This document shows, piece after piece, positions 4,893-63,920 of a DNA stretch of 64,000 nucleotides. Under the pieces are notes generated by a model. The model ran no database searches, was not told the origin of the DNA, and saw nothing but the letters and a program-made list of their open reading frames with translations. Location: contig NZ_CP053904.1 of the NCBI RefSeq assembly GCF_013256425.1, forward strand, positions 3,844,001 to 3,908,000, written 5' to 3'. A program made the position numbers and the translations under genes. The stretch comes from Hymenobacter sp. BRD67 (lineage in GTDB: Bacteria > Bacteroidota > Bacteroidia > Cytophagales > Hymenobacteraceae). How positions within the stretch are numbered: the stretch's first letter is position 1; each line of letters begins with the position of its first letter.

Positions 4893-4986
4893 GTAGCGCG
4901 GACTCTGCGAGTCCGCGCGTGAGGAGGGTAGAGCGGGAGCGGGAGTGCCGATAACACAACGCGCGGACTCGCAGAGTCCGTGCTAC
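4893..4986. repeat. Paired-hairpin (BIME-like) repeat, family A copy 1
   Basis: Two 28-base arms, 4893-4920 and 4959-4986, are inverted copies with one mismatch. Each arm is itself a palindrome (GCGGACTC-TGC-GAGTCCGC), so the element is two REP-like hairpins head to head. It lies between the stop of the DoxX gene and the start of the permease gene. A second copy is at 62929-63006. Confidence 0.9.
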
Positions 4987-52083: not shown

Positions 52084-52776
52084 AGCCGCGGCCAGGAGCG
52101 CCTCAGCCAGCAGCAGGTCTTCGGGAGTCGTGATTTTTAAATTGCGGTAGTCGCCTTCTACCAGCTGTACCGGGTGCAGGTCGTCCACTACGCTGGCATC
52201 ATCGGTGAAGGTCGGCAGCTCGGGCAGGCGATAGGCGCGGCGCAGCAGCGCCAGGTCAAACGTCTGCGGCGTCTGCATCAGGCGCAGGCGGCGGCGGTCG
52301 AGCGGCGACGAGCCGGCCGCCCCCAGCAGCCGCACCGAGTCTTTGGGGGGCACGGCGGCCGCGGCCGCGCCGTGCGTAGCGGCCGCCTGGTAAGCTGCCT
52401 CAATCACGGGCGTCGATACAAGCGGGCGCACGCCGTCGTGCACGGCCACCAGCGCGCCGGCGGCATCAGCGGGCAGCGCAGCCAGGCCGGCTTTCACCGA
52501 TGCCCAGCGCGTAGCGCCGCCCGCCACCAACGTGTGCGGCAGAGTAATATCGTATTTTTCGCATATTGACTGCCAGTAGGCAAGCTGGTCAAATGGCAAC
52601 ACCACCACCACCTGCGCCACGCCCAGCGCCGACTCGGCAAAGCGGCGCAGCGTGTGCAGCAGCACCGGCTCGCCGCGCAGCAGCAAAAACTGCTTGGGCC
52701 GGTCGGCCCCCATGCGCTGCCCCGTGCCACCGGCCACCAGAATGGCGTAGCGTACTGGGTTAGAAGGGTTTGTCAT
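52078..52776 (-). CDS. ispD: 2-C-methyl-D-erythritol 4-phosphate cytidylyltransferase
   Basis: Third enzyme of the MEP isoprenoid pathway: MEP + CTP to CDP-ME. The 232-residue chain has the nucleotide loop VAGGTGQRMGADRPKQFLLLRG near the start, VVVLPFDQ, and AVHDGVRPLVS followed by DDASVVD and EGDYRNLKITTPEDLLLAE. The start at 52776 (MTNPSNPVRYAILV) is canonical. The last codon (GTC) and the stop belong to the adjacent repeat, so the C-terminal residue probably came from the repeat. Confidence 0.94.
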   Translation of the reverse strand: MTNPSNPVRYAILVAGGTGQRMGADRPKQFLLLRGEPVLLHTLRRFAESALGVAQVVVVLPFDQLAYWQSICEKYDITLPHTLVAGGATRWASVKAGLAALPADAAGALVAVHDGVRPLVSTPVIEAAYQAAATHGAAAAAVPPKDSVRLLGAAGSSPLDRRRLRLMQTPQTFDLALLRRAYRLPELPTFTDDASVVDDLHPVQLVEGDYRNLKITTPEDLLLAEALLAAAV

Positions 52777-62485: not shown

Positions 62486-62932
62486 ATGGAAACTACTCGT
62501 CGCTCACTCGCCCAGCTGCCCGCCCCCAAAACCACCCCGCTCCAAGACGTGGCCCGCTGCCTGCTCGGCAGCTTTATGGTGACGGCTGGTACTGGCCACC
62601 TCACTTTCGTGCGCCAGGATTTTCAGGCCCAGGTGCCCGATTTTGTGCCGTTTAACAAAGATACGGTGGTCTTGCTCTCGGGCGTAGTCGAAATCGGCCT
62701 GGGGCTGGCCCTGATTTTCTCGCAGGGGCCAAACCGGGTGCGCATGGGCCTGGGGCTGGCGGCGTTCTATGCCGCCGTTTTTCCGGGTAATATTCACCAG
62801 TATACCCACCACCTGTCGGCGTTTGGCCTCGATACCGATGGCAAGCGGCTGGGGCGGCTGTTCATGCAGCCCGTGCTGATGGGCGTGGCGCTGTGGGCTA
62901 CCGGCGCGCTAAAAGCGCTCCGCAAAAAGTAG
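62486..62932 (+). CDS. DoxX-like membrane protein
   Basis: A 148-residue protein with four hydrophobic helices of DoxX type (VARCLLGSFMVTAGTGHL; TVVLLSGVVEIGLGLALIF; MGLGLAAFYAAVFPGNIHQY; VLMGVALWATGALKAL). The GNIHQY..histidine cluster is typical. Function unknown, possibly redox. Its TAG stop lies within repeat family A. Confidence 0.85.
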   Translation: METTRRSLAQLPAPKTTPLQDVARCLLGSFMVTAGTGHLTFVRQDFQAQVPDFVPFNKDTVVLLSGVVEIGLGLALIFSQGPNRVRMGLGLAAFYAAVFPGNIHQYTHHLSAFGLDTDGKRLGRLFMQPVLMGVALWATGALKALRKK

Positions 62933-63006
62933 TGTGGACGCTGCGAGTCCGCGCGTCAGAACGTTGTTCAAGGATACCATGCGCGGACTCGCAGCGTCCG
63001 CGCTAC
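62929..63006. repeat. Paired-hairpin (BIME-like) repeat, family A copy 2
   Basis: Inverted arms 62929-62956 and 62979-63006 match over 28 bp with three mismatches; each arm contains the GAC-CTGCGAGTCCGC palindrome. The TAG stops of the DoxX gene (62930-62932) and of the convergent methyltransferase (63003-63005) lie at positions 2-4 of the two arms. Confidence 0.9.
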
Positions 63007-63920
63007 TGTGCCTTCTCATTCCGAGCCACCACAAACATTCTGTCCCCAAACCGGCCGCTCAGCTTGTTGAGCCAGTAGGTGGGGTACTGCGTGCCCAGCT
63101 TGGCGGCCTGCTCTACCAGGTTGCCCCCCAGGCGAATGTGCTGCGGCGCTTTCACCGGATTTTGCAAATCAACCACCGAAAACCCATTCTTAGCCAGCAT
63201 CTTGCGAATGGTACTGGGCGTAAACTCGTAGAGGTGGTAGGGCGGAATATCCATGCGGCGCTGGCGGCCCAGCGCCTTATAGGCCGCAAAGCCCAGGCGC
63301 ATGCTCGGCAGGTTCGTCACGCTGGGCAAGGCCAGCACCAGCAGCCCGCCGGGCTCCAGGATGCGGCCAAACTTGCGGATGGCGGCGGCCGGCGACAGCA
63401 GGTGCTCGAGCACGTCGCCGAGGTAAGCCAGGTCGAACTGATTTTCGTGGAAGTCCTCGGTGGTTTCGATGTTGCCGGTTACTACGGGCAGGCCCAGCTC
63501 ACGGCGGGCGTAGTCGGCGGCGTGCGCGCTGATTTCGAGGCCGTGCGTTTCCCAGCCCAGGCTTTGCAAGCTTTTAAGTGTGTAGCCAGGGCCGCAGCCC
63601 ACATCCAGGTATCGAAAGCGCCGGCCCGGATAGTGCTGCTGCATGTAGCGCGTGAACTTATCTTCCTGCACCTTGCTTAAGTCCAGGGCTTTACCTTCTT
63701 CGATAAAGGTTTTTTCCTTCTCCGTGCGGTCGTAGTTGGGGCGGTCAGTGAAATACTCCTTGCCATACAGCTTTTCGAGCTGCGCGGGCGTAGGCTGCGG
63801 GTCGAGAAAAGCCAGGTCGCAGCTGGTGCAGCGGGTGCCTTGCAGGCGCTGACCATCAAAAAGATAGTAGAAGGGCAGGGGCTCGAAGCTGGTAGCTCCG
63901 CACAGGTCGCAGTGGCGCAT
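63003..63920 (-). CDS. Class I SAM-dependent methyltransferase with N-terminal zinc ribbon
   Basis: A 305-residue protein. Cysteines 4 and 7 (CDLC) and 32/35 (CTSC) suggest a zinc ribbon. The methyltransferase domain has motif I YLDVGCGPGYTLKSLQ (about 103), LPVVTGNIET, the DLAYLGDVLEHL motif and GGLLVLALPS. The wording is like Methyltransf_23 proteins of polysaccharide clusters. The C-terminal region (RRMDIPPYHLYEFTP; PTYWLNKLSG) is conserved in Bacteroidota. Substrate unknown, possibly a sugar or lipid. Confidence 0.9.
   Translation of the reverse strand: MRHCDLCGATSFEPLPFYYLFDGQRLQGTRCTSCDLAFLDPQPTPAQLEKLYGKEYFTDRPNYDRTEKEKTFIEEGKALDLSKVQEDKFTRYMQQHYPGRRFRYLDVGCGPGYTLKSLQSLGWETHGLEISAHAADYARRELGLPVVTGNIETTEDFHENQFDLAYLGDVLEHLLSPAAAIRKFGRILEPGGLLVLALPSVTNLPSMRLGFAAYKALGRQRRMDIPPYHLYEFTPSTIRKMLAKNGFSVVDLQNPVKAPQHIRLGGNLVEQAAKLGTQYPTYWLNKLSGRFGDRMFVVARNEKAQ

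Follow-up and report, generated by a model that had tools for sequence, protein, structure and literature searches.

The 78-bp sequence at positions 62929-63006 of the window (the whole 64,000-nucleotide stretch of Hymenobacter sp. BRD67 DNA that was analyzed) is a REPIN. It represents an ordinary REPIN family, here termed family A, in a new host lineage. In our opinion, it is probable that this family was spread by a RAYT transposase and that its copies often lie on or beside native amber stops, so that the tag of the element doubles as the stop codon. The two convergent genes that end within the two tips of the window's element (Table 1) are a striking single case of a habit already in print: the use of REP tips as TAG stops was described in 2013 (Di Nocera et al., PMC3733652).

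Table 1. Family A elements in the window and the genes that adjoin them.
Feature	Positions	Strand	Remarks
Family A REPIN, two inverted GTAG-REPs	62929-63006		22-bp spacer
Left REP arm	62929-62956	+	28 bp; GTAG tag at 62929-62932
Right REP arm	62979-63006	-	28 bp; GTAG tag (minus strand) at 63006-63003
DoxX-like gene	62486-62932	+	TAG stop at 62930-62932, within left tag; start from codon-usage ORF caller; Pfam DoxX 21.8 bits (cut-off 23.6)
SAM methyltransferase gene	63003-63920	-	TAG stop (minus strand) at 63005-63003, within right tag; Methyltransf_23, 73.6 bits
Second family A REPIN (copy 1)	4893-4986		94 bp; neither tip a stop
Gene ending in TAA	4990-6108	-	End lies 3 bp outside right tip of copy 1

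The element opens with GTAG and closes with CTAC. Comparison of its inverted arms confirmed the 28-bp length and the three mismatches given in the original prediction. The arms are also palindromes, as had been claimed, but imperfect ones, and the right arm folded alone forms an 8-bp hairpin, whereas the left arm alone adopts a weaker, different fold. The full 78-mer forms a single long hairpin (z of -8.9 on the plus strand and -6.7 on the minus strand). Family A has the 5′ GTAG tag next to an imperfect palindrome that characterizes GTAG REPs. The claim that the DoxX-like and methyltransferase genes both stop at a TAG in positions 2-4 of the respective arm proved correct. The same outer GTAG had been attributed to copy 1; both of its tips do have it, yet neither serves as the stop of a called gene: the start of one neighboring gene is 10 bp away, and the other gene has the TAA stop listed in Table 1.

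The stops of methyltransferase relatives, read by eye in 29 rows, are TAG (22), TAA (6), and TGA (1). In relative G010 this gene ends in TAGTAG, stopping just before the repeat's own TAG; BRD67 reads CAGTAG at this place, so the tip TAG now does the stop work in BRD67. The methyltransferase relatives among the named loci, 35 in a count that may leave out the window's own record, are titled Hymenobacter, one of them Hymenobacteraceae. In two genomes, G106 and G101 (loci L074 and L079), the same convergent gap beside the methyltransferase ortholog holds a different, large GTAG...CTAC repeat of the GTAGCGTAAGCTT type.

A search of the BRD67 assembly (94% complete) and of related genomes, as the original prediction had proposed, revealed a dispersed family. 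The single-arm pattern matched 88 REP units at up to 3 mismatches, and the reversed-pattern control matched none, which rules out a chance repeat or one unique to the two sites in the window. The whole-element search gave 90 matches, both orientations counted. Most of the 43 elements scanned are head-out pairs of 64-140 bp with the tags outermost; a few are single arms. At up to 1 mismatch, family A is present in 51 of 120 genomes of the genus, BRD67 included; 45 of the 120 have a sister family, A′, carrying GGACTTTYAGTCC. The abundance of A and A′ varies among genomes, roughly with the type that flanks the RAYT gene. A family A unit was found in G010 at 31 of 32 sites paired between BRD67 and G010. 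In more distant relatives, A′ or another inverted repeat sometimes occupies the sites, in modest excess over control gaps. The fetched DNA has a G+C content of 60%.

Gene ends were tallied around these 43 elements (the arm search gave units at 7 more loci, which lie outside the tally), with genes taken from a codon-usage-trained ORF caller and independently of annotation. An end counted as facing if less than 400 bp separated it from a GTAG tip; 2 of 43 ends, which lacked a GTAG tip, were dropped. Among the remaining 41 facing 3′ ends, a tally in which some genes beside closely spaced elements count twice, the tip TAG (offset -4) is the stop in 12, 1 end lies one base inside the tag, 22 lie 0-13 bp before it, and 6 lie at least 58 bp away. 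Thus, 35 of the 41 fall within -4 to +13 bp of the tip. Of the 34 ends from -4 to +6 bp, 12 have exactly the -4 offset (binomial p 1.8e-4, for nine equally likely offsets). None of the 41 reads through. The 35 gene starts facing tips all lie at least 4 bp away, except for one inside an element. Both tips serve as stops in 1 of the 43 elements, that of the window. The placement of family A is therefore that of GTAG REPs, i.e., dispersed, extragenic, and mostly at gene 3′ ends, with one copy inside a called ORF. This copy (C1:1799342-1799417, L025) lies within the ORF called at 1799047-1800804 and is not among the cases behind the 41 ends; the call could be an error of the caller, or the REP could be intragenic.

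The prediction that the outer TAG would often be a stop held in relatives as well as in BRD67. Ends within 60 bp of a tip lie at -4 in 2 of 5 cases in G028, 7 of 15 in G101, 6 of 6 in G058, and 12 of 52 in G010, where there are also two possible read-throughs into elements. With these counts added to the 12 of 41 in BRD67, the outer TAG can hardly be called a rare stop. Under a wider definition applied to the fetched BRD67 stretches, the tip is a stop in 11 of 31 family A cases, and two smaller groups give 1 of 5 each.

The RAYT transposase to which the original prediction pointed is linked to the repeat in relatives of the genus; none was found in BRD67. A PF01797 search of the BRD67 genome (E 0.001) returned two IS200-type genes only, which are 99.8% alike, and a search with the RAYT protein of G058 gave no match at E 0.01. 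The IS200-type genes (L040 and L041) were rejected as the mover of the repeat: no family A arm occurs in the 3.4 kb around them. The REPIN classification consequently rests on the relatives. In G058, family A REPINs lie on both sides of a gene for a 199-aa HUH protein, and the TAG of the second REPIN is the stop of that gene. Its best NCBIfam model is that of the REP-associated tyrosine transposase (E 1.6e-19). NF047646 is the best-scoring model for the G058 and G010 proteins, although both (70.2 and 74.5 bits) stay below its cut-off of 80 bits; with Pfam Y1_Tnp they score 26.8 and 25.6 bits, against a cut-off of 23. Both carry NHVH, together with YVLENP and YVAENP, respectively. Within the genus, the G058 protein finds a match at E 0.01 in 92 of 120 genomes, many at 30-40% identity; a RAYT gene flanked by the same REPs was seen in the relatives G058 and G010 only. 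Of the 30 loci fetched, 27 contain a RAYT frame by a motif search that required NH.H and Y[IV]xxNP, and in 11 of these 27, by our reading, the gene's own stop is the GTAG of a REP.

Two neighboring genes, which in BRD67 lie at 734030-735869, enclose a RAYT gene in 17 of the 30 fetched loci (L121-L137). Between the same two genes BRD67, outside the window, has a solo REPIN and no RAYT (C1:734868-734957, L017), and since 17 relatives keep the transposase at this place, BRD67 has probably lost it. The solo REPIN resembles a mixture of the upstream and downstream copies of G010, which suggests that the gene was deleted by recombination between its flanking REPINs. At the 17 same-place loci, A or A′ flanks judged by eye were seen in 13, the 4 loci of other types being dropped; in 10 of the 13 the flanking type is also the commoner one genome-wide, with a tie in G113 and the contrary in G068 and G033. 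At five of these loci, from five other species (L129, L131, L133, L136, and L137), the reading frame of the gene downstream of RAYT continues into an A′ REP and stops at a TAG within the hairpin loop.

We envisage the following course of events. The element, which consists of two inverted REP palindromes with GTAG tags and is non-autonomous, would owe its spread through Hymenobacter to a RAYT transposase of the HUH/Y1 type acting by single-strand chemistry, as other TnpA-REP enzymes do. The outer TAG would be part of the 5′ GTAG tag read by the transposase. BRD67 would later have lost its RAYT, probably by recombination between the two flanking REPINs. The surviving copies would be those that spare genes. 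Because such copies survive and Hymenobacter genes frequently end in TAG, copies on or beside a native amber stop would be common, and the tag would then double as the stop codon, at both tips in the case of the window. Comparisons between BRD67 and its relatives yielded no clean pair of empty and filled insertion sites. Twenty G010 sites were fetched for target-site duplication, and 17 were paired with BRD67; by eye, 7 of these elements are shared and 10 are not, and at the latter BRD67 has different hairpins, different sequence, or a deletion with ragged edges.

Whether the element brings the stop or adjoins an existing one was assessed with orthologs of the 12 genes that end at -4, taken from G010, G028, G101, and G058 and sorted by the presence of a REP starting at the stop. 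TAG ends the gene in 13 of 17 REP-free comparisons at -4 sites (42 of 56 over all relatives fetched) vs. 6 of 17 at other sites (6 of 18 over all); Fisher p is 0.037 for 13 of 17 vs. 6 of 17 and 0.004 against 48 of 123 background genes. Here "REP-free" follows a simple hairpin rule, and the rows are not independent. In four of the 13 TAG rows (1207337 in G101, 2190289 in G010, 3906929_L in G058, and 55307 in G028) a REP that has decayed or is of another kind may be present; without these rows TAG remains in 9 of 13 (p 0.043 vs. background). A TAG in a REP-free relative could also be the scar of a lost REP. The TAG thus often needs no element. Positions tell a less uniform story. REP-free genes end at the same codon as in BRD67 in 9 of 17 comparisons at -4 sites vs. 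15 of 17 elsewhere (p 0.057), the length being shifted in 8 of 17 vs. 2 of 17. Over all rows, a set weighted to the two window genes with their many distant relatives, the length is the same in 19 of 56 vs. 16 of 18 (p 7e-5). Gene ends are therefore less constant at -4 sites, which fits REPs that moved or supplied some stops. Of the 13 REP-free TAG ends, 6 fall at the BRD67 codon, so that the element may have moved some ends, and 12 fall within two codons of the BRD67 end.

These data bear on two alternatives to the preferred reading. According to one, which we think unlikely although deserving of attention, the stop comes with the element: an insertion within the final codons of a gene would be tolerated only in the frame in which the tip TAG ends translation, and selection would leave such copies. 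The original prediction read the repeat in this way, and the 2013 paper words it likewise. All 12 of the 41 facing ends that pass the first base of the tag do stop at the tip TAG, which at a chance of 1/3 per frame gives 2e-6, and the length shifts keep this alternative alive. Moreover, at some sites a relative without a REP has TAA, for example G028 at 1207337 and at 2680094; at 2976065 the G101 gene stops at TGA, and a REP follows directly. Against these observations stand the TAG ends of REP-free relatives and the existence of read-through, namely at the RAYT locus of the five other species, possibly twice in G010, and in the ORF around 1799342. Bringing of the stop by the element is accordingly doubtful: the TAG counts make it unnecessary at most sites, and the length comparison leaves it possible at some. 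This is also where the original idea, a hairpin that brings a stop at each end and so spares genes, parts from the data; the dispersed hairpin of REP/RAYT type whose tip TAG is often a stop has held up, the bringing is in doubt, and double use is limited to the one element. The other alternative, improbable in our estimation, is that RAYT directs insertion to a (G)TAG already in place, so that amber stops are the targets and later REP families re-use the slot in other species. It would account for the TAG excess in REP-free relatives, and the REP-free gene end of G101 at 2680094, CTG TAG, is of the expected form; GTAG is also said in PMC8266576 to guide the choice of cleavage site by the one RAYT studied there. 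Yet the tip TAG is not the stop at 29 of the 41 facing ends, and the short REP-free orthologous gaps of G028 at 52239 and 1799342 contain no GTAG. The cleavage itself is at CT or CA in the account of PMC8266576, though PMC3733652 has an E. coli RAYT cleaving GTAG.

It is very improbable, in our view, that the hairpin is a bidirectional terminator or a stabilizer of mRNA ends kept for its function and not a mobile element. The strong fold and the location at gene 3′ ends would suit such a role, and an inverted repeat is found in 36 of 43 slots of three relatives, compared with 38 of 66 control gaps (p 0.006). This modest excess led us to abandon a strict rule by which every slot holds a hairpin; A or A′ occupies 14 of 43 slots and 8 of 66 controls, in counts from which six slots of more than 400 bases were dropped and in which the class of other GTAG repeats is loose. 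A terminator scan detected no T-tailed stem at the repeat, and an intrinsic terminator was rejected. No Rfam family exceeded its gathering score, the best match being mir-H11, whose 34.6 bits fall short of the gathering score of 70 and which we take as a chance hairpin match. Moreover, the repeat occurs in near-identical copies throughout the genome and next to RAYT genes, a distribution that requires an element. A RAYT-spread REPIN family whose copies often adjoin native amber stops remains the reading that we favor.

The family adds GTAG REPs for a genus of Bacteroidota and offers a natural case of a transposase that was probably lost while its elements remained. With it, one can test whether stop codons are provided by REP tips, as published, or were already present where the tips settled. 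If amber stops proved to be targeted, the element would inherit a landing site that spares genes, and this would explain how a spreading element leaves them unharmed. A literature search by titles and the opening parts of abstracts, which does not prove absence, found no work on REPs or RAYTs of Hymenobacter.

Among known systems, the REPINs of Pseudomonas fluorescens SBW25 (Bertels and Rainey 2011, PMC3116915) are similar in that the unit consists of two inverted REPs and a spacer, forms a long hairpin, and depends on a RAYT in trans. They differ in the stem, the host, and the tag, which according to PMC2817692 is mostly GTGG in SBW25 and is GTAG here, and BRD67 differs by the lack of a detected RAYT. 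Family A shares with the GTAG REPs described in PMC3733652 the GTAG at one end of the palindrome, the inverted dimers, the location at 3′ ends, and the frequent use of the tips as TAG stops, a codon that the paper calls opal. The GTAG REP hosts given in the part of that paper drawn on here are Proteobacteria, Cyanobacteria, Chloroflexi, and the PVC group, with Bacteroidetes mentioned only for CGTC repeats; the paper also reports that REPtrons have been lost in many E. coli strains. As with the RAYT genes described by Nunvar et al. 2010 (PMC2817692), REPs lie near or just after the rayt stop and two opposite REPs flank the gene; unlike in that description, the rayt gene of Hymenobacter often ends on the TAG of the REP itself. 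The proteins resemble TnpA-REP subclasses 2.4 and 2.6 (PMC6006769) in the NHVH-type motif and in having Bacteroidetes among the hosts, whereas YVLENP, in a comparison by motif alone, matches neither of the consensus sequences printed there exactly.
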